A stretch of 64,000 nucleotides of DNA, taken from contig NZ_CP089301.1 in the NCBI RefSeq assembly GCF_021227995.1, positions 5,394,001 to 5,458,000 on the forward strand, given 5' to 3'. The position numbers were made by a program, and so were the translations under genes. Below the pieces are notes generated by a model. The model saw nothing but the letters and a program-made list of their open reading frames with translations. It did not search any database and was not told where the DNA came from. This stretch comes from Novosphingobium kaempferiae. GTDB lineage: Bacteria; Pseudomonadota; Alphaproteobacteria; Sphingomonadales; Sphingomonadaceae. Shown in pieces: positions 41,731 through 64,000 of the stretch (the first letter of the stretch is position 1; every line of letters starts with the position of its first letter).

Positions 41731-41821
41731 AGGAACATAAAGGGAACTTGCAAGTCTCGTCACCCGACGCGAAATTTGCCGCTGGAAGTCCCCGCCGCCC
41801 TCTGCTACCCGCCGCTGCACT

Positions 41822-41898
<77 letters not shown>

Positions 41899-42022
41899 TG
41901 TTTATTTTTCTAACTATCTGATTTTGCGCGGAAATGGGCCGGCAGAGATTTGATGGTTCCCACACTTTATCCCACATTTGGGGGCTGACGTATGCCTATT
42001 AGGCTTGGCGACAGGATTGAGC

Positions 42023-42484: not shown

Positions 42485-43075
42485 ATGGACCTGGGAGTCG
42501 CAGAAATGCACCCCGATAATCAGGTGGCGGCGCGGGCCGCAGACTCGATGGTCAACTGGCCGTCGATTGGCGCTGAAGAATTCGAAAATCTTCAGTTTGA
42601 TCAGTTCTGCCATGACGAAAATTTCCATCGTGAAATCAGCCGCTTGACGGTCAAAGAGCGGCTGACCCACATGACGCTGCACTTTGCGAAGTACTCAGGT
42701 TACCTTGCGAACGATCCAGACGACCTTCGTCTACGCCGTACTATCACAGACCTTTTCGTGATCGGGCTCTCAACGCTTAATGGGTTGAACGTCAGAGCCC
42801 ATCCATTGGTCACTGAGATAGGCCAGATCGAAGATACCTCACGGTCGGCGTTGGCCCGTCGTGTCGCGATATTGGCAGGTGAAATGGCGTCGGCGTGTGA
42901 GCGTCTCGATCATCTTGAAGAGTTTCCTTACCGCCAGACGCTCCAAGGCGCGGCAGCGACAATGGTCGCTTTGGCGCTAAGCGCAGCAGAAGCGCGTCAG
43001 TGGTCTATGCCTCTGCTTGTGAAGGAGCGCCTTCAGCGGGTCAAAGAGAAGTCCATTTTCTATGGGCGCCTGTAG
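42485..43075 (+). CDS. Helical protein of unknown function next to the Dcd-like gene
   Basis: About 196 aa; the ATG at 42485 has GGGGA upstream, and ATG 42470 and 42506 are alternatives. The sequence is almost wholly helical. RRTITDLFVIGLSTLNGLNV resembles the Asp-containing helix of MazG-like all-alpha NTP pyrophosphohydrolases, but the paired ExxE motif is not convincing, so this is only a hint. The end LVKERLQRVKEKSIFYGRL is basic. It ends 14 bases before the Dcd-like gene, so the two probably work together on nucleotides. Confidence 0.6.
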   Translation: MDLGVAEMHPDNQVAARAADSMVNWPSIGAEEFENLQFDQFCHDENFHREISRLTVKERLTHMTLHFAKYSGYLANDPDDLRLRRTITDLFVIGLSTLNGLNVRAHPLVTEIGQIEDTSRSALARRVAILAGEMASACERLDHLEEFPYRQTLQGAAATMVALALSAAEARQWSMPLLVKERLQRVKEKSIFYGRL

Positions 43076-43089
43076 GTCGGAGTGAGAGC

Positions 43090-43839
43090 GTGACCTTTTG
43101 GAGCGGGGATCGCTTGCTACGCGACGGCAAGCAAGTCGACCTGGTGACCCCGTTCGACGACAAGCTGATCGATTGTTCAGCGTATACGCTTAGGTTGGGG
43201 CATGAGTCTTTCGTGACTCCACAGTTCGGTGAAGCTGGCCCCAACATCAAGCAGCAGCTTGCCGAAGCTGGGGAAATAGACATCGCGGGCATCAAAATGC
43301 CTGTATCAGGCGGGGAATTGGTCATTCCTGCTGGCCAATTTGCGTTTCTATTGACGCATGAAGTCGTCAAGATCCCTGCTGGTTGTATGGGCTTCATCTC
43401 GCTGAAGTCGAAGCTCAAATGGAACGGCTTGATTAACGTATCCGGGTTTCACGTGGATCCTGGCTTTCACGGAAGACTGGTCTATTCAGTCTATAACGCT
43501 GGGCCGTCCAACATCCACGTAAGGCGGGGCGAGAAGCTTTTCCTTCTTTGGATTGCCGATTTGGATACCGCTACGGCTCCCGGGGCGAACCGCTTCATCA
43601 AGACCAACAACGAGCCGCTAGTAGAAATCCCCACTGATCTGGTGTCCCGAGTTGATCGTCCTCTGCACTCACTTCAAAGCCTTTCGGAAAAGGTTGAGGC
43701 CCTGCAGCGAGAGTTATCGATGATCCATCGAGTTATGGCCGCGCTAGCAGTGATAGCCGGACTAATATTGGCGGCCTGGGCTCTTCTCCCTTCTGCAGAC
43801 GGCCAGAGCAATTCAGGATCCGCGATAGAGGTATCGTGA
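43090..43839 (+). CDS. dCTP deaminase/dUTPase-fold protein with C-terminal membrane anchor
   Basis: 249 aa from GTG 43090 with GGAG upstream. The trimeric dUTPase/Dcd fold is recognisable: DCSAYTLRLGHESF, ELVIPAGQFAFLLTHEVVKI, GFHVDPGFHGRLVY and YNAGPSNIHVRRGEKLFLLW. Compared with E. coli Dcd, the catalytic Glu (E138) aligns with Ser and Arg115 with Trp, so canonical deamination is doubtful. Residues about 188-212 form a coiled coil, then about 213-233 a transmembrane helix and a short polar tail. This anchored layout is unusual for the family. It is the second gene of a two-gene unit and overlaps the opposing gene by 27 bases. Confidence 0.8.
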   Translation: MTFWSGDRLLRDGKQVDLVTPFDDKLIDCSAYTLRLGHESFVTPQFGEAGPNIKQQLAEAGEIDIAGIKMPVSGGELVIPAGQFAFLLTHEVVKIPAGCMGFISLKSKLKWNGLINVSGFHVDPGFHGRLVYSVYNAGPSNIHVRRGEKLFLLWIADLDTATAPGANRFIKTNNEPLVEIPTDLVSRVDRPLHSLQSLSEKVEALQRELSMIHRVMAALAVIAGLILAAWALLPSADGQSNSGSAIEVS

Positions 43840-44691
43840 TTTAGGCCGGCCCTCGCCAAGCCTGGTCCGCTCGTATTTGTCGAATTCACAGAGCTGGAAC
43901 TGAATGTCGTGGAGTTCCAGTTCAGGCATGTAATCCGGCAGATTTTCTTCGGCCATAGCCAGCAGCGTGATCATTTCGGCAATTAAGGCTCTTTCTTTGA
44001 CTTGGGCGCCGATGGGGCGGCCATAAAGGCGATTGAGGCCCCGCCGAGCGCCAGGTCCCGCTGGACACCAAGTATTGCGATCAAGCACATGAGACATGGC
44101 GGGAGTGTGCATCGCGTCTTGCAGCACCTCCTTTGCCATAAACCCGCTTCCGCCGAACCCGGGCATTCCTCGAAGCACGTTCGCAACCTGCTCCCAGCTT
44201 TTTGACTGGTCAGCAACGTCCGCGAGCTCGTCCCGCCGCTGCCATAGTGGCGTTAATATAAGGCGAGAAACCGCTTCAGCCTTCGGACCCCGGTGCCCTA
44301 GGCTAGGAATGATGTAAGCGCCGGTGAAAACTCGCTCACCAGCGTTCTGACGCTCCGCAGCCAAGCGACAAATCTCTTCGCTGTCCCAGTGATCCCGCCA
44401 ACCGGCAGCAGCGGCGAACTCCATTGTGCCGAAATATCGGAAGAATGCGCAATTAAAGATGATCTCCCCATGGGGACGGTTCCCATGCGGCATAGTCCAA
44501 TTTTGGCGCATCCATTTGGTCGTCCGGTCATCCTCGCGTTTGACATTCGTGAACTTGAAGGCGTTCAAGATCGGGTCTTCTGACCAAGGCCATGGGGCCC
44601 CGCTCTCTTTCCGAAGGCGGAGTTGTTCTCTTTTCGCCATGAAGGCAAAAAAGGCTTCTTCAGAATCCTGCATTGATACTGGCCTTGTCAT
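43813..44691 (-). CDS. Alpha-glutamyl/putrescinyl thymine pyrophosphorylase-like (DNA hypermodification) protein
   Basis: 292 aa. The sequence MAKREQLRLRKESGAPWPWS, then DPILNAFKFTNVKREDDR with TTKWM (about residues 40-60), GAYIIPSLG, GFGGSGFMAKEVLQDAM and WCPAGPGARRGLNRLYG match the helical domain shared by aGPT-pyrophosphorylases, amino-acid:DNA transferases and hmdU DNA kinases, known from phages such as phiW-14 and SP10 that replace thymine with modified bases. These enzymes act on pyrophosphorylated 5-hydroxymethyluracil in DNA. No hydroxymethylase or kinase is visible nearby, so the present role may differ. It is convergent with the Dcd-like gene. Confidence 0.75.
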   Translation of the reverse strand: MTRPVSMQDSEEAFFAFMAKREQLRLRKESGAPWPWSEDPILNAFKFTNVKREDDRTTKWMRQNWTMPHGNRPHGEIIFNCAFFRYFGTMEFAAAAGWRDHWDSEEICRLAAERQNAGERVFTGAYIIPSLGHRGPKAEAVSRLILTPLWQRRDELADVADQSKSWEQVANVLRGMPGFGGSGFMAKEVLQDAMHTPAMSHVLDRNTWCPAGPGARRGLNRLYGRPIGAQVKERALIAEMITLLAMAEENLPDYMPELELHDIQFQLCEFDKYERTRLGEGRPKSRYLYRGS

Positions 44692-49678: not shown

Positions 49679-50668
49679 TCAACCCTCCAGTTCAGCCGGA
49701 ATGCCCTCCGCGATCACCTCGTCGATGTATTCCCACGCGCAGTAGCGGTGGCGCAGATCATCGGCGTAGTCCTCGTCGCCGTTGCTGCGCATCAGGCCGA
49801 TGAACGCTTCGAGGTTCAAGGTGGAGAAACTAGCCTTGCCTTCGGTCGGGTCTGCAAGCTGCCCGGCATATCGCTGACAGGCCCGCTGCATCGGCGTGTT
49901 CAGTTCGGGCAGGATCACCACGAACCGCCCTTCGGCGTAGTCGCCGCGCATGATCGCCGACTGAAGCAGGACATGCTCGCGCATGAGTTGCTGGATCGGG
50001 CGCTTGCGCAGTTCGGGCGCCATGGGGTCGATGAACAGGCCCGCCGCTGGCATCAGATCGGCGTACCGCTTCCGAAGCTCCTTGATGGGCTCCCAGCCGC
50101 TCTCGCTGTACTTCATCTCGATCGCGATGACGCCCTTGGTACCGTCGGCGCGAGCGTAGGTGATGGCCGCATCCCAAGCGGTGTGGTCCTCGGTGAGGTC
50201 TGCCGCGCCGCGCCCCGGGGAATGTTCGAACAGCACTGTGTCGGCTGTGGCATCGGCAAGGTCCGGGAACATGGCGCGTAGCATGGCGGTCGCCAGTTCC
50301 GGGTCCAGCCGCAGCGGACCGAGGGCATTGAAAACGAGCGGGTGGCTGGAGAGCAGGTTCGTCCACAGGCGCTGCTCGTCCGAGGTTGCCCATGGTTCGC
50401 GGTAGGCGTGCTCCAGATAGGCCAGCTTCGAGATCTCCGGCGTCATGAAGTTCCCACCCCGGCGCGCAGCGTAGTCATTGATGCGCGAGCCGAGCCAGCG
50501 TTTGTCTCCATTCGGTGAGACGTGGCGACCGGGACGAAGCTCGCGGCCACTACGCCAGAGGCTCTGCAACAGGCGCGCGCAGGAGCGGAAGCGGGTGTCG
50601 TTCGGCTCGTTCACCCGAAAGCGCCGCAGGATGGGCTCGGGGACGAGGGGTAGATGGGTTCGGTTCAA
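49679..50668 (-). CDS. PGN_0703 family putative restriction endonuclease
   Basis: 329 aa from TTG 50668, which has GGAG upstream (GTG 50716 is an alternative). RWLGSRINDYAARRGGNFMT, LWTNLLSSHPLVFNALGPL, VLFEHSPGRGAADLTEDHT, AWDAAITYARADG and VIAIEMKYSESGW match the PGN_0703 family. The D...ExK set (Asp near 163, EMK near 181) is a PD-(D/E)XK nuclease core. The family is annotated as a putative restriction endonuclease without a methylase partner, and none is seen here. It diverges from the HUH-like gene. Confidence 0.85.
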   Translation of the reverse strand: MNRTHLPLVPEPILRRFRVNEPNDTRFRSCARLLQSLWRSGRELRPGRHVSPNGDKRWLGSRINDYAARRGGNFMTPEISKLAYLEHAYREPWATSDEQRLWTNLLSSHPLVFNALGPLRLDPELATAMLRAMFPDLADATADTVLFEHSPGRGAADLTEDHTAWDAAITYARADGTKGVIAIEMKYSESGWEPIKELRKRYADLMPAAGLFIDPMAPELRKRPIQQLMREHVLLQSAIMRGDYAEGRFVVILPELNTPMQRACQRYAGQLADPTEGKASFSTLNLEAFIGLMRSNGDEDYADDLRHRYCAWEYIDEVIAEGIPAELEG

Positions 50669-50771
50669 GGTGAGTCTCCGTTCAGCCTGCGAGACTTGCA
50701 GGCCCGGAAAATTCACGGATGCATGGGAGGTGTTTACGCTTTCCCGACCTTCTGGCGGCTACGCATGCACC

Positions 50772-51728
50772 ATGGATGATGACCTCGCCTCCGATCGCTT
50801 CCGCGACCTCCCAGAACGTGAGCAACGGCTGGCTGCCTTGAGGCGCGACGGGATCGAGCCGATCGATCGACAGGGGAGGCCTCGCGTGGTGCTTGGGGAC
50901 GGCCCCGAATCGCGCCTGGCGCTTAGCACTGCGCATGTTCGCCACGTGCGCCAGCAGCCTATCTCAGACCATCTGACGCTGGCCGAATGGAAGCGCATGT
51001 ATCTTGCCGTGGCGACCGCCAACTATCGCGGCTGGATGCTCAACACCTTTGTCACGGTCTCTTGGGAATTGAGCGGCGTCCAGCACCCGCCATATATCAA
51101 ATCGCTGCATGATCGCTTCACTGACCTGATGCGGCGATGGTGCCGCGACGTGACAACAGCCCTGCAGAAGTCCCCCGACACCCGGCTGTCACAGCAGGAG
51201 GTTCCATTCGCTGGGATATGGGTCCGGGAGGTAGGCGAGCGCATGGGGCTGCACACTCACTTGCTCGTGCATGTGCCGCCGCCGCTGTTCCAACGGTTCC
51301 GGCGCGGGGCACGCCGCGCGGCCCACACTCTCACCGAAACGCCGATGCCGGATCCTCGTAAGGGCCCCACGGGGAAGCATCTCGTGCGCATCCAGCCGCT
51401 CGGTGATGTTGCCGATCAATGGCGGGTGTTCCGGTACATGATGAAGGGGTTAGATCGTGAGGTGCTGCCACCCACCATGCATCCTGACTTTCGCCAGTTT
51501 CTCACCGGCGAGTTCCCATTGCTGAAGTCGGTGCCGCAAGGGCGCATCGAAGGGGCAAGGTGCGGCGCATCCCGGTCTATCGGGCCAGCAGCAAGGGACG
51601 AGCTTCGGCGGACCATCGGATTGCCGCCGCTGTGGCCCGAGGACTTCGACCCACAAGGCCTGCACTATGGAGCAAATTACCTGAATCAGGGCGAGTTGGC
51701 GCGAAGTCTGAGGCAAATTACGATCTGA
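50772..51728 (+). CDS. HUH/Rep-like replication initiator candidate
   Basis: 318 aa. Three spaced motifs resemble HUH endonucleases: NTFVTVSWE (motif 1), GLHTHLLVHVP (HxH metal motif) and VFRYMMKGLDREV (Tyr and Lys of motif 3). HUH proteins nick one DNA strand to start rolling-circle replication or transfer. The HxH here has Thr between the histidines, so the match is imperfect. The C-terminal 60 residues (LPPLWPEDFDPQGLHYG) are typical of a uniform family I recall in alphaproteobacterial mobile elements. A long upstream frame extension is rejected. Confidence 0.6.
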   Translation: MDDDLASDRFRDLPEREQRLAALRRDGIEPIDRQGRPRVVLGDGPESRLALSTAHVRHVRQQPISDHLTLAEWKRMYLAVATANYRGWMLNTFVTVSWELSGVQHPPYIKSLHDRFTDLMRRWCRDVTTALQKSPDTRLSQQEVPFAGIWVREVGERMGLHTHLLVHVPPPLFQRFRRGARRAAHTLTETPMPDPRKGPTGKHLVRIQPLGDVADQWRVFRYMMKGLDREVLPPTMHPDFRQFLTGEFPLLKSVPQGRIEGARCGASRSIGPAARDELRRTIGLPPLWPEDFDPQGLHYGANYLNQGELARSLRQITI

Positions 51729-59788: not shown

Positions 59789-60373
59789 TCAGCGGCATTT
59801 CTCCGCTAGCTTTTCGATGACGCTGTCCCGGCTCAGTAGATAATCCTCGGCATATATACGCCCGGTTTGCCCATTATCGGGGTATACCACATCTTTGAAC
59901 CCATAGCCGCGATCGTAACCAACCAACGTTTCGCCTTCCGCTGGATCGTGCCCCCTGTACCACTCCAAAAGGTAATAGCCCCTTGGCCCGTCGGCCACGA
60001 AGTAATCGCAACCTTCCGGGCGGTACACGACCGTCACAACAGCAGATGGCTTACTTGGCGTGATGTGAGCCCCCAACGGCCTGGATGCCTGCAAGGCAAC
60101 GACATCCAATGACTTGCCCTCGATCACGAGAACACCTCGGGAGGGGCAGATGACGACCTCGGGCTGATATTCGTACAGGTACTCGTATTCGTTCTGCACC
60201 TGCCAGAGTGAGCCATCATCCAGTTTGATCACTTCGTCATGGTTCCCCATGAAGGGGGATGGCGCCATTACCGTCGCCTCGTAGCAGTCGGTGGCCTTTG
60301 CACTGGACGGAGCAAATGCCTGCATCGCGAATGACGCGACGAGCGACAGTAGGAACGACAAATATCCGCGCAT
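59789..60373 (-). CDS. Secreted hypothetical protein (possible cargo gene)
   Basis: 194 aa. Signal peptide about residues 1-28 (ending SSAKATD). The mature domain has CYEATVMAPSPFMGNHDEVI and LWQVQNEYEYLYEYQPEVVI followed by CPSRGVLVIEGKSLDV, a pattern I recall in small exported bacterial proteins of unknown function, with two cysteines. A second region (YYLLEWYRGHDPAEGE, VVYPDNGQTGRIYAED) follows. GGGGG precedes the ATG. Encoded against the flanking operon, it looks like independently expressed cargo. Confidence 0.7.
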   Translation of the reverse strand: MRGYLSFLLSLVASFAMQAFAPSSAKATDCYEATVMAPSPFMGNHDEVIKLDDGSLWQVQNEYEYLYEYQPEVVICPSRGVLVIEGKSLDVVALQASRPLGAHITPSKPSAVVTVVYRPEGCDYFVADGPRGYYLLEWYRGHDPAEGETLVGYDRGYGFKDVVYPDNGQTGRIYAEDYLLSRDSVIEKLAEKCR

Positions 60374-60435
60374 GAAAAGCCCCCGCTTCGCAGACTACAT
60401 AGCACCCCTGAGGCGTCCAAGCTCAAGACCAATTT

Positions 60436-60546
60436 GCGGGTAGTACGGGTAGATACGGGTAGTCTCCCAACCTAACGCGGGGATTTGTCAGTGACAAAAT
60501 ACATATAGAGGCTGGGAAACTACCCGTATCTACCCGTACTACCCGC
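60436..60546. repeat. 111-bp symmetric palindrome with six CGGGTAG iterons
   Basis: Arms 60436-60473 and 60509-60546 are reverse complements with 2 mismatches in 38, including 28 perfect bases. Each arm holds three CGGGTAG units (60437, 60446, 60456; mirrored at 60520, 60530, 60539). The spacer contains the 15-base palindrome TTTGTCA-G-TGACAAA (60484-60498), whose centre, 60491, is also the centre of the whole structure. It lies between divergent genes and near the primase pair, so a replication origin is likely; a regulator site is the alternative. Confidence 0.85.
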
Positions 60547-60602
60547 ATTGACTTGGTGGGGAAGGTTGGCAGGTTCTGCGATGCGTAAATGGGGGAACCA
60601 CG

Positions 60603-61430
60603 GTGCAAGCGCCTGCAATTCTTGAATTTGAACTATCGTCCGGAAAGAATGCTGACGCGATCATCGCTGCCCGGGCCCTCATCGAGTGGGCGGAGGCCAT
60701 CAAAGCCGCGGCGCGGGTGATCGATCCATCAGGCGACGTTTCCATCGATCTGATCAGCGCGGAACCGGCATGCCTGAGGTTCTCAGCTGTCCTGAATTTC
60801 ATTGAGCAGAATGTTTTGGCTCCCGTTGCTGAAAAGCTGGAGCCGTATCCACGCATCAAACAGATTTTGGCACTGAATGTTCTGATCCTGCCGGGCGCAA
60901 TCATCGGAGGTATCGCGGTTAATGCATTCAGCGATGACCCCGACGTTGCAGAGAAGCAGCGCCAGGTCGCTGAATCACCGGCAGTCCAAGGGCACGTCGA
61001 GAGCTTCTACAAAATCGTGCATTCGGATCCGGCTATCAAGCGTGTGGTCGTTCGAGAGACGCGAGACGGCCCGCCGGTGATGTCAGTTAATCAATCGGAG
61101 TTTGCTGAGCGAAGCGGGCTATGGGCTATGGAAGAGGATGCTCCCAGCGAACGCGAGGGCGGGGGCGTTTGGAACGTGATCGTGACTCGACCCGTCGCGA
61201 TTGCGAAGCCTTACGCCTGGGGTTTCATGCGCGACGGTCTGCCATTCCGGGCGAAGATGGTGGACGAGCAGTTTCTTGAGGCAATGAAATTGGGCACCTT
61301 GCCAATCACTCTTCAAGAAGGCGTCACCATGGAGGTGCGGGTGTCCTATCGCGAGCGCCTAGAAGGACAGCTCTGGATCCCCGTCCCCGGTACTTACAAA
61401 ATCGTTCAGGTATTGAACCCCAAGCCTTAG
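60603..61430 (+). CDS. Phage-like hypothetical protein with a central membrane helix
   Basis: 275 aa from GTG 60603, with GGGGG seven bases upstream. Helical N terminus (AIIAARALIEWAEAIKAAAR), a hydrophobic segment near residues 95-115 (ILALNVLILPGAIIGGIAV), then a beta-rich C-terminal domain (WNVIVTRPVAIAKPYAWGFM, EGVTMEVRVSYRERLEGQLW). The layout is seen in several prophage proteins of unknown role. It sits directly downstream of the iteron palindrome and its stop overlaps the opposing small gene by 3 bases. Confidence 0.6.
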   Translation: MQAPAILEFELSSGKNADAIIAARALIEWAEAIKAAARVIDPSGDVSIDLISAEPACLRFSAVLNFIEQNVLAPVAEKLEPYPRIKQILALNVLILPGAIIGGIAVNAFSDDPDVAEKQRQVAESPAVQGHVESFYKIVHSDPAIKRVVVRETRDGPPVMSVNQSEFAERSGLWAMEEDAPSEREGGGVWNVIVTRPVAIAKPYAWGFMRDGLPFRAKMVDEQFLEAMKLGTLPITLQEGVTMEVRVSYRERLEGQLWIPVPGTYKIVQVLNPKP

Positions 61431-61603
61431 GGGCTTCCGGATTGCCGCAGCAGCGCGAGAGAGAGAAGCCCAACGACCGCTACAACCCCAGCCGTCGGGA
61501 CGGGCCATTGAGTGGCGCACCAAGTTACGATACCGCCCAATATGGCGCTAATCCCGATCACTACCGGGTCGCGGATCGCGGCAGCAATGAGCTTCATGAA
61601 CAT
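61427..61603 (-). CDS. Small two-helix membrane protein (58 aa)
   Basis: ATG 61603 (or 61597), with GAGG upstream, runs to TAA at 61427-61429. The product has two hydrophobic helices: DPVVIGISAILGGIVTWCAT and TAGVVAVVGLLSLALLR, joined by QWPVP. Size and topology are like class II holins or small phage membrane proteins; no lysis enzyme is seen beside it, so holin is only a possibility. A plus-strand frame over the same bases is Arg/Asp-rich and unconvincing. It follows the ATPase gene in the leftward direction. Confidence 0.65.
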   Translation of the reverse strand: MFMKLIAAAIRDPVVIGISAILGGIVTWCATQWPVPTAGVVAVVGLLSLALLRQSGSP

Positions 61604-61687: not shown

Positions 61688-63241
61688 CTATCCCACCCGC
61701 ACCACCGCCCAAGTCTTCTGCTTGGCACTCTTATCATACCCGTCAACAATCTTAAGGCCATCTATCACCCGGCCCTTATGCCGACCTAGCCAGATTCCGA
61801 GCGCCTTCGCGTTGATCTCCCCCGGCCTTCCCTGCGCGACATCGAGCAGCGCCTGATAGAGGTCGCTGTGAGTGCGGTTCTCGAACATGCGCTCATCGGT
61901 CGTGGCGATCACTTTCCCGATCGTTCGCTCGGCTGAACTGATAGCGTTATGCCAAGACGCCAAGACGGCGCGGAGGCCAGAAGTGGTAGGATCATCGGCG
62001 CGGGCCGTCTCCATCGTCTTCACCGGATCAGGCTTTCCCAGCCACACAAGCGCCGAGCGCACGATTCGGCTCCAGTCCTCGAAGGACGCAAGCGCCGGAA
62101 GCTGATCGGGGTAGCCAGCCGCCGCATAGGCACGGGCCACGACCAGTGCCGCCGCCACGTACTTCCCGCGATCGGAGAGCACCTGATCCATGGGGCTTTT
62201 CTTGAACTGCCGCAGTTCCGGGCGTTCCATGTTGGGATCGAGCGAGCACAACACCACGCGGCGCGTCATATCGCCGACAAGGTGGATGTTGTTGCCCGTG
62301 GCGAAGGTTGTAGCCCGGCTCTCGATCCGCATGAGCTTTGAAGATCCCAGCACGCGTGGCTCGACGATGGGACGCTCGATCATCTGACACAGAAAGTCCC
62401 CTCCAAGATCGCCATTCACGTTGTCGATCGAGATGATGGCCTGCCCGCCCAAGAGAGCCGACACCAAGCGCTTTTCGGTTTCGGCCTCATCACGTCCAGC
62501 AGCCATCACGGGCGCGCGCTGCCCGATGCTGATGGCCGCCGCGAGGTCGATGATGTAGCTCTTGCCTGAGCCTGCTACTGGCGCGCTGGTGACGTGCATG
62601 GGGGCAACCTGCATCGCGCCGCGCACAACCGGCGTGATGAGGCCCGAGAGGGCCACCGAGCGGCTTGCCTCATCGACGAACGGGAACTCGTCCAGCAGCG
62701 CGTTGAGGAATGCCAGGGCCTTCAAGGCATCTGCGCGGGTAGGCTGCTCGGGGATCGCAGGAAGACGTGGCGGGTCCATGAGCAGAAGCTGCGTCTGGGC
62801 ATCGTAGCCGGGCGTCGAAAGGATCGTGCCGTCCGGGCGCAGCGTCGGTGTCGTGATGACCCCGGCCAGCCTCGGGAACTGCCATTCGCCATCGCGGGAA
62901 AGGATCGTCGCGGCGACGGGCCGGGGCGGGTCGGTGATGACCATGCGCTTCTTGCGGGCGTCGAACCTCTCCCAGTCTGCCTCGCGGGAAAGGTGATCGA
63001 CCAGGGTATCTGCCGTGACTTCAGCCAAGCGCGCGACCTTTGTCTTGTGGCCATGAGCGGCAGGCAACTCATCGACGATCGGGCGTACGAGACCGCCACG
63101 CACATAGAGCGGAGAACCGGCGCCGATCAGCGCGCGCTCTCCCTCCGATGCCATGAGGTGCAATTCGCCAGCGCGCACAGTGATGAGCGGGCGGGGCGGG
63201 TTTGATACGACGGCGATATTCGAATTCGGACGTGCGCTCAT
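61688..63241 (-). CDS. P-loop ATPase/helicase partner of the primase
   Basis: 517 aa. Walker A is VAGSGKSYIIDLAAA (about residue 222) and Walker B is QAIISIDNVNG, followed by FATGNNIHLVGDMTRRVVL, a sensor and arginine region seen in phage and plasmid replication ATPases. The N-terminal 200 residues lack a known motif. The C-terminal part (about 400-517) is helical with a winged-helix-like end. Overlap with the primase gene (ATGA) suggests that the pair unwinds and primes at the element's origin. Confidence 0.82.
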   Translation of the reverse strand: MSARPNSNIAVVSNPPRPLITVRAGELHLMASEGERALIGAGSPLYVRGGLVRPIVDELPAAHGHKTKVARLAEVTADTLVDHLSREADWERFDARKKRMVITDPPRPVAATILSRDGEWQFPRLAGVITTPTLRPDGTILSTPGYDAQTQLLLMDPPRLPAIPEQPTRADALKALAFLNALLDEFPFVDEASRSVALSGLITPVVRGAMQVAPMHVTSAPVAGSGKSYIIDLAAAISIGQRAPVMAAGRDEAETEKRLVSALLGGQAIISIDNVNGDLGGDFLCQMIERPIVEPRVLGSSKLMRIESRATTFATGNNIHLVGDMTRRVVLCSLDPNMERPELRQFKKSPMDQVLSDRGKYVAAALVVARAYAAAGYPDQLPALASFEDWSRIVRSALVWLGKPDPVKTMETARADDPTTSGLRAVLASWHNAISSAERTIGKVIATTDERMFENRTHSDLYQALLDVAQGRPGEINAKALGIWLGRHKGRVIDGLKIVDGYDKSAKQKTWAVVRVG

Positions 63242-64000
63242 TTCCCGAGCCTCCCCATCAGCTCGGCATTGAAATCCTTGGCCCCTACCGGGAAGATCGC
63301 GCGGCTGCTGATCCCGCGCGTCCGGTAGGCATCAATTGCAGAATCGGCCCCGGTGCGGCCCGCCTCGTCGGAATCGCCGCCGACGGTCACGTGGGACACC
63401 AGCGAGGGGAAACGCATCTTCGGCATGTTGCCCGCGCCTGCCGCCACCCAAACGGCACGGCCCATCTCCTGCTGGAGCGTCAGACCATCTTCGAGCCCTT
63501 CGCAGACCATCAGGTCGCACGCCGCAGGTGCAAGACGGACGGCGCCGCCTGAGATCCGGCCGAGCGAGAGCTTTGGCTTGCGGACGTTCGCCTTTCCGCG
63601 CCCGTCGGCTGCAAGGTAGGTCCGCTGGATGCCGCACAGGCGGTTGTCAGCCCCGGTGATGACGGCGATCAGGCAGGGATGCTTCTGGCCGTGGTTGCCA
63701 TAGGTCAGCCAAGTGAAGCGGATGGTTTCGGGAATTGCGAGGTCCAGGCCGCGGAACCGCAGATAGGCTTCAGCCAGGGTGCCCGTAGCCGGAGACGCCG
63801 CCCGCCAGATGGTGCGGGCTTCCTCGATTCGCTCTTCCTTCGTCCGCTCCGGCGCATCAACGATCGGCTTCACGGCCACGGCAGGCATGTCACCAGCGGC
63901 GAGCATGGCGGCAGCTTCGCGGAACTCGATCTGATGCAACTCGCGCAAGAAGTCGATCACGTCGCCGCCCTTGCCGCAGCCGAAACAGTACCAGCGCTTG
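63238..64000 (-). CDS. CHC2/Toprim DNA primase (5' end outside window)
   Basis: About 254 codons are visible, with no stop before the window edge. The first residues, KRWYCFGCGKGGDVIDFLRE, are the second half of a CHC2 zinc finger, so the true start lies beyond 64000. A DUF7146-like region follows, then the Toprim domain: DLMVCEGLEDGLTLQQ (catalytic Glu) and VTVGGDSDEAGRTGAD (DxD). It makes primers for replication of the element. It is the first visible gene of the leftward pair. Confidence 0.88.
   Translation of the reverse strand, partial: KRWYCFGCGKGGDVIDFLRELHQIEFREAAAMLAAGDMPAVAVKPIVDAPERTKEERIEEARTIWRAASPATGTLAEAYLRFRGLDLAIPETIRFTWLTYGNHGQKHPCLIAVITGADNRLCGIQRTYLAADGRGKANVRKPKLSLGRISGGAVRLAPAACDLMVCEGLEDGLTLQQEMGRAVWVAAGAGNMPKMRFPSLVSHVTVGGDSDEAGRTGADSAIDAYRTRGISSRAIFPVGAKDFNAELMGRLGK

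Follow-up and report, generated by a model that had tools for sequence, protein, structure and literature searches.

In phage-inducible chromosomal islands (PICIs), the replication origin lies directly 3' of the initiator gene, and two sets of iterons flank an AT-rich region (PMC6092414). The Rep initiator of Staphylococcus aureus pathogenicity islands (SaPIs) recognizes downstream iterons with its C-terminal domain, and the C-terminal domain of Cch2 binds its putative origin (PMC7581432). Here we describe a site of comparable layout in a 64,000-nt stretch of the Novosphingobium kaempferiae genome (contig NZ_CP089301.1, positions 5,394,001 to 5,458,000; hereafter the window), which is part of a single 5.70-Mb contig. 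The site is a large palindrome built from six copies of the iteron CGGGTAG, in the vicinity of genes for a D5/SF3-type ATPase and a DnaG-type primase. Because its layout shares the logic of PICI origins and the ATPase has a similar build, we read the site as an origin and the ATPase as its initiator helicase. Comparison of related sequences makes it very probable that the palindrome is the replication origin of an alphaproteobacterial phage or phage remnant, whose host is probably a sphingomonad. Most likely, it is an origin of PICI-like organization that here occurs in phages.

The palindrome is real. A first-pass annotation, made by a model from the letters and open reading frames (ORFs) of the window, had assigned it arms of 38 bases; they are in fact 39 nt each (60435-60473 and 60509-60547), 95% complementary and separated by 35 nt. 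The rest of that description was borne out. Each arm carries three exact, mirrored CGGGTAG copies (Table 1) with a start-to-start pitch of 9 and 10, the 15-base dyad TTTGTCAGTGACAAA shares the centre at 60491 with the arms and iterons, and about ten bases on either side of this core do not pair. The centre itself is one unpaired base. Such order was rightly thought unlikely by chance: the ungapped palindrome score is 33, and the best of 60 order-1 Markov surrogates of the window reached 15. The next-best palindromes listed for the window (scores 30, 28, 27, and 27) are copies of one unrelated dispersed hairpin. When the 143-nt segment was searched against its whole own genome, only the segment itself and its own mirror image were matched. 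The word CGGGTAG occurs five more times in the window, close to the 4.4 occurrences expected by chance over its full length.

Exact pieces of the array are absent from the other collections searched, with no stretch in viral_contigs (26-mer), none in genome_contigs (18-mer), and none in 60 other genomes (16-mer). The layout became visible only after relatives of the ATPase had been fetched. These came from IMG/VR (8 loci, then 55 with an alignment, several of them on the same contigs), from GTDB genomes (3 loci), and from the family of the host (15 of 397 genomes, own included). At first look, a similar inverted structure was seen in 4 of the 8 viral loci. Read by eye, each of the other four and of the loci L017-L019 also has one, the weakest being in L016, which was missed by the automated finder. 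This finder scans from -60 to +320 around the ATPase stop codon for two mirrored triads of 8-mers; since each side must contribute three copies and the gap must measure 40-80 nt, 2+2 and wider arrays are scored as misses. By eye, the arrays of L016 and L035 look wider.

Among 71 loci with a stop codon, three were too short, leaving 68 for assessment (one locus enters twice, as its pieces L088 and L091). Near the ATPase stop, the array score falls in the top 1% in 40 of the 68 loci and in the top 5% in 46, relative to controls taken from these loci themselves (700 of 1443 tiles). If a strong array is defined by a score of 87 or more, 31 of 32 start at most 100 nt from the ATPase stop and one starts at 102, within the -60 to +320 searched. 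The highest-scoring control (115), a tile of L086, is itself a 3+3 array; it falls within the open frame of a distant relative, in its 3' part. In L086 (tile from 2660), L116, and L117, all of them distant relatives, the ATPase open frame takes in the array in its 3' part, and these arrays may also be translated. Arrays of the window, L010, L017, and L019 are displaced, lying 711-1156 nt from the ATPase behind inserted genes, and these loci are therefore misses in the stop-proximal scan. A longer scan (2560 nt) gave them scores of 110-112, versus at most 94 in the control regions listed.

At 55% or higher ATPase identity to the window, a strong array is found in 20 of 23 loci, window included; the exceptions are L030 and L075, whose contigs stop within the gene or shortly past it, and L070, which scores 82. 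Between 40 and 55% identity, strong arrays occur in 10 of 27 loci, and a score of 82 is attained in 16 of the 27. The corresponding fractions of strong arrays are 4/11 at 35-40% and 2/11 below 35% (the denominators of this breakdown include two too-short loci). As a hold-out, an order-wide search (12 of 396 genomes, own included) yielded 13 loci besides that of the window. Six of them repeat known loci by place or identical protein (L107=L017, L109=L077, L112=L085, L113=L080, L115=L087, L120=L090). Four of the seven new loci have the array (L110, score 91; L116, 115; L117, 97; L118, 93), while the misses L111, L114, and L119 have L084 as their nearest relative among the sequences compared. The hold-out comparisons are liberal, because many overlapping scan positions per locus were tried against single control tiles.

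The recurrence of arrays beside ATPase relatives supports, at the level of sequence, the first-pass proposal of an iteron origin tied to the primase/ATPase pair. The same annotation had treated CGGGTAG as the feature to be sought in other genomes. Here it was mistaken: what is conserved, as judged from the compared loci, is the 3+3 mirrored layout and not the iteron letters. In the 36 strong arrays, the iteron consensus takes many forms, among them CGGGTAGT, TGCGGGTA, TGCAGGAT, TGCATAGA, CTGCATAG, CTTGGTTT, TGGGGTTT, TTTACGGG, TAGGATGG, and AGGTGGGA. For 190 of the 216 iteron copies, 7 or 8 of the 8 letters agree with the consensus of the array concerned. A further copy of this quality flanks the triads at 2 of 144 positions, compared with 0.5 expected from random positions; since the finder demands three copies, this count excludes four and says less about two. 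The spacing is mirrored in 26 of the 36 arrays, being 9,9/9,9 in 13 of them and 9,10/10,9 in seven. If ten weaker arrays are added, the region between the triads in the resulting 46 measures 50-78 nt (median 62). The best dyad lies at most 1 nt from the core midpoint in 26 of these 46 cores, window included (shuffles: mean 2.6, maximum 8 in 100 rounds). Many core dyads are not significant singly, and their letters vary (TTTGTCACTGACAAA, ATTTGTCCGGACAAAT, TGTCATCTGACA, ATTTCGCAGGGTGCGAAAT).

The core has a polarity. In the window, the block CCTAACGCGGGG beside the dyad opposes the direction of the ATPase, as it does in the form CTAACGCGGGG in L010 and L017, and a similar block runs along the ATPase direction in L009 and L011. 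A crude motif count over the cores gave 23 forward, 12 reverse, and 11 undecided. The asymmetric core (60474-60508 in the window, approximately 9543-9598 in L009, and 6222-6281 in L011) looks as if it had been flipped between the inverted arms.

The ATPase belongs to a PHROGs family of unknown function (phrog_29234, 4e-163), with a further match to phrog_19930, DNA polymerase/primase (3e-26), and is without a match in Pfam or NCBIfam. A sequence search of PDB with a 12-row ATPase alignment returned a single irrelevant match (E 0.53); the likeness to SaPI-Rep/D5 helicases is thus at the level of the fold only. In the AlphaFold 2 (AF2) model, with a predicted local distance difference test score (pLDDT) of 89.6, the protein is modelled as a D5/SaPI-Rep/NrS-1-type helicase fold followed by a C-terminal winged helix. 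The modelled C-terminal domain comprises helices 417-433, 440-447, 458-467, and 477-486 and strands 495-502 and 507-514, with block pLDDT of 87-92 from residue 421 onward. Fold alignment with 7pds covers the whole of this domain, and that with 7om0 nearly all of it. The first-pass annotation had pointed to the N-terminal domain as the DNA reader; the C-terminal winged helix is the likelier candidate. The closest ATPase found outside the own genome (92% identity) is that of Novosphingobium resinovorum (L017), and in many relatives the open frame of the ATPase spans 700-1000 codons. A tblastn search against cultured phages gave 59 records, all below 60% identity, the best-ranked at about 30% among the 40 of 59 records listed. 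By eye, and with kinship ignored, the tip of the winged helix tracks the iteron class, GKxRT occurring with TGCA-type and KxGN with GGGGTTT-type iterons.

Table 1. Positions of the proposed origin, its repeats, and the adjacent genes in the window.
Feature	Position	Strand	Basis
Proposed phage origin, two mirrored iteron triads around a central dyad	60435..60547	.	
Iteron 1, CGGGTAG	60437..60443	+	exact copy
Iteron 2, CGGGTAG	60446..60452	+	exact copy
Iteron 3, CGGGTAG	60456..60462	+	exact copy
Central dyad, TTTGTCAGTGACAAA	60484..60498	.	
Iteron 4, CGGGTAG, mirror of iteron 3	60520..60526	-	exact copy
Iteron 5, CGGGTAG, mirror of iteron 2	60530..60536	-	exact copy
Iteron 6, CGGGTAG, mirror of iteron 1	60539..60545	-	exact copy
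Cargo gene between ATPase and proposed origin, 275 aa, antisense to ATPase	60603..61430	+	weak matches
Small ORF, 58 aa, same insert, ATPase strand, candidate coding	61427..61603	-	without family match
D5/SF3-type ATPase, proposed origin-binding helicase, 517 aa	61688..63241	-	PHROGs matches, AF2 model, fold matches
ATPase C-terminal domain, winged-helix-like, proposed iteron reader	61691..61990 (model residues 417-516)	-	AF2 model
DnaG-type primase (CHC2 zinc finger, DUF7146, Toprim_3)	63238..64000 (complete frame to 64230, past the window end)	-	family matches

Comparison with the described systems shows both shared and distinct traits. As in PICI and SaPI origins, the arrays are placed directly 3' of the gene for an initiator helicase, here a proposed one (PMC6092414, PMC7581432), and two iteron sets surround a central region (PMC6092414). 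The initiators are alike in combining a helicase core with a C-terminal domain for double-stranded DNA, which here is modelled and predicted (PMC7581432). In contrast to PICIs and SaPIs, the array here occurs in phages whose relatives encode a large terminase, each side has three mirrored copies, the dyad often lies exactly at the centre, the core is not strongly AT-rich, and the DnaG-type primase of the window is a separate gene. A PICI is a satellite without a large terminase of its own; since a large-terminase match was obtained in 10 of the 12 relatives scanned, those relatives are not PICIs. The satellite phage P4 similarly relies on a Toprim-type primase, a helicase, and a winged helix that binds origin repeats (here predicted). 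In the window, unlike P4, primase and ATPase are separate genes. The P4 alpha protein is a single polypeptide, and the P4 repeat layout differs from the array described here. The P4 system is also mentioned in PMC4234260.

An analogy for assembly is provided by the origins of papillomavirus E1 and simian virus 40 (SV40) large T antigen, which also offer several short sites to a ring helicase whose two hexamers come to face each other, as may happen here; for E1, a double trimer precedes the double hexamer (PMC5295021). Those origins have four sites and their helicases a separate DNA-binding domain, whereas here a phage array has six sites and the helicase a C-terminal winged helix (PMC5295021). 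Three copies per side, the mirrored pitch, and the centred dyad suggest two mirror-image assemblies. In the proposed mechanism, the C-terminal winged helix would bind the iterons, three per side at a 9-10 bp pitch. This would place two helicase assemblies, related by mirror symmetry, opposite each other across the central region of about 60 bp. An ATP-driven rearrangement could then melt the core at the central dyad, after which the zinc-finger/Toprim primase encoded by the adjacent gene would prime the forks. We infer origin function, binding by the ATPase, the order of assembly, and bidirectionality, and our confidence in the assembly model is lower than in the origin reading. A path from double trimer to double hexamer of the E1 type would be hypothetical here.

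A bolder generalization is that these sites form a widespread, undescribed class of phage origins, in which mirrored triads around a dyad fix two facing trimers that become an E1-like double hexamer, and in which the letters drift with the winged helix as the geometry stays fixed. We regard it as tentative and rather less likely to hold than to fail. In the open-access literature, as judged by the listed titles and the openings of abstracts, no description of this origin in these phages was found.

Several observations weigh against the origin reading or its extension. In the distant clade (L080, L084, L085, L090, L111, L114, and L119), the array is found in none of the seven distinct loci; the best score, 79 (L113, +976), is reached by 11 of 700 control tiles. 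L045, L048, L062, L066, L068, and L069 also score at control level. The first-pass annotation had held that its proposal would suffer if homologous elements kept the primase pair and lacked a similar palindrome. Judged by presence of the ATPase rather than the primase, close relatives (20/23 at 55% or more) and part of the 40-55% range speak for the proposal, and the distant clade (0/7) and some other distant loci speak against it. The loci are not independent, as 14 of the 55 aligned IMG/VR loci come from one metagenome. The cores are only moderately AT-rich, with an average GC content by thirds of 48/42/50% in 46 cores, compared with 59-67% for five contigs overall. In only one of five contigs does the cumulative GC skew have its minimum no farther than 0.5 kb from the ATPase end. 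Covariation of iterons with the winged helix is weak: iteron distance correlates with winged-helix distance at 0.42 and with the ATPase core at 0.41 (raw values, 30 loci), and the partial correlation with the winged helix given the core is 0.14 (permutation p 0.042), versus 0.11 (p 0.12) for the reverse, in statistics that ignore phylogeny. This test used the 30 of 36 strong arrays contained in alignment A2, which holds 51 sequences, namely the window and 50 of 52 references (all but L048 and L049). Reversed loci, loci lacking a stop codon, and those whose match began late had been removed beforehand. The GC-skew and covariation results are neutral to unfavourable.

Among other explanations, one with a small share of probability is a cruciform or stem-loop origin of the pRN1 type, read as a structure rather than as repeats. 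The pRN1 and phage BIP-1 origins are likewise inverted structures of about 100 bp directly downstream of a primase-helicase-winged-helix gene, the stem-loop being required in pRN1 (PMC4234260), and the arms of the window could form a long stem. However, the conserved feature here, unlike in pRN1 and BIP-1, is direct iteron identity: the direct repeats within each arm are kept where the arms pair poorly (e.g., L013, L015, and L031), and a site read only as a structure would have no need of three copies per arm. Because direct identity persists in imperfectly pairing arms, binding to duplex DNA appears to fit better than the recognition of a cruciform by the ATPase suggested in the first-pass annotation.

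An operator for a phage transcription factor is similarly improbable, although it keeps some likelihood if the window is considered by itself. In the window, the palindrome is flanked by the divergent ORFs 59789-60373 (-) and 60603-61430 (+), which such a factor could control, as it could any downstream gene. In array-bearing relatives, however, the site coincides with the 3' end of the ATPase gene or lies close to it and the downstream sequence differs, CGGGTAG is not dispersed in the window above chance, and an operator leaves the recurrent place 3' of the ATPase unexplained. Autoregulation may exist alongside origin function.

Still fainter is the case for a packaging site (pac/cos) bound by a small terminase between replication and packaging modules. 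Of the 12 loci in which a large downstream ORF was scanned, 10 have a large-terminase gene, 717-4593 nt beyond the ATPase stop (the scan gave no match in L018 with PHROGs and in L010 with Pfam), and DUF5681 genes lie near the palindrome in the window and, below the curated cut-off, in L010. Yet the array keeps to the ATPase stop while the distance to the large terminase varies over that range, and the best-matching large-terminase family changes among loci (phrog_38, 979, 3717, 2, and 9). Mirror-symmetric triads also seem better suited to two-sided assembly than to a directional cut.

Large palindromes are typical of protelomerase targets, in which the inverted repeat runs through the centre and the protelomerase gene lies within the element. 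A telomere-resolution or site-specific recombination site would also agree with the opposite core orientation relative to the ATPase in the window, L010, and L017 and in L009 and L011, as if flipped between the arms. It is nevertheless highly implausible. The repeat of the window does not run through the centre, where a single base is unpaired and some ten bases to either side of the core fail to pair. The window ORFs scanned, which were only part of the total, gave no match to a protelomerase or recombinase, and the 3+3 pattern is left unexplained.

With the site taken as an origin, the four loci with displaced arrays suggest gene acquisition between ATPase and origin. The inserts differ: 60603-61603 in the window, 8011-8778 in L010, 7563-8659 in L017, and 7513-8253 in L019. 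In the window, it is the inserted cargo that separates the array from the ATPase. In all four, the principal gene of the insert is taken to run antisense to the ATPase. Curated family matches support this strand for L010 and L017, and support for the window is weak; for L019 it comes from the choice of the ORF alone, a 246-aa frame preferred to one of 230 aa on the opposite strand. The insert of L010 encodes a Bro-N protein with a BstA-like C-terminal part, and that of L017 a PIN_10/DUF433 pair; both look defence- or toxin-antitoxin-like. The 275-aa product of the window has weak matches to NF053583 LAPAL (37 bits, below the cut-off of 60) and PDC-S42 (18 bits) and none in Pfam or PHROGs, while the 58-aa ORF had no match in the family scans. 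In viral_contigs, five stretches fit a pattern for relatives of the 275-aa cargo, and none was confirmed. The place between the ATPase and the origin is thus a possible hotspot for cargo genes.

The surroundings also contain phage-related genes, among them one whose 1284-aa product gave a match to a family of internal virion proteins. The window ORFs scanned, again only part of the total, yielded no match to an integrase or large terminase, which makes a remnant or a mosaic a possible reading of the element. A search for attachment-site repeats was negative in that no 14-mer of the tRNA-Arg region (41800-41960) recurs in 42000 to 112000, and the three 15-mers common to 38-54 kb and 60.5-80 kb are short and unrelated. 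At 43000-44691, a dCTP-deaminase-like protein is encoded convergently with a 5-hydroxymethyldeoxyuridine (5-hmdU) DNA kinase helical-domain protein (PF18723); the pair, close to the tRNA-Arg at 41822, suggests phage DNA-base modification genes. A 416-aa ORF at 50478-51728 has a sub-threshold match to the replication-associated protein ORF2/G2P (19.2 bits, cut-off 27.8). Finally, a near-perfect hairpin (TCGTCATTGCGAGCGTAGCGAAGCAATC and its complement) resembling repetitive extragenic palindromic (REP) elements or miniature inverted-repeat transposable elements (MITEs) is dispersed in at least four copies in the window, centred at 143, 6138, 22854, and 29385.

In summary, a layout closely similar to that of PICI origins occurs here in phages. 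An anonymous palindrome and an ATPase of unknown function become a testable pair of origin and initiator for many uncultured phages, most of them probably alphaproteobacterial. The number of repeats that stays constant while their letters change provides a handle on how D5/SF3 helicases may be loaded as opposed rings in bacteria.
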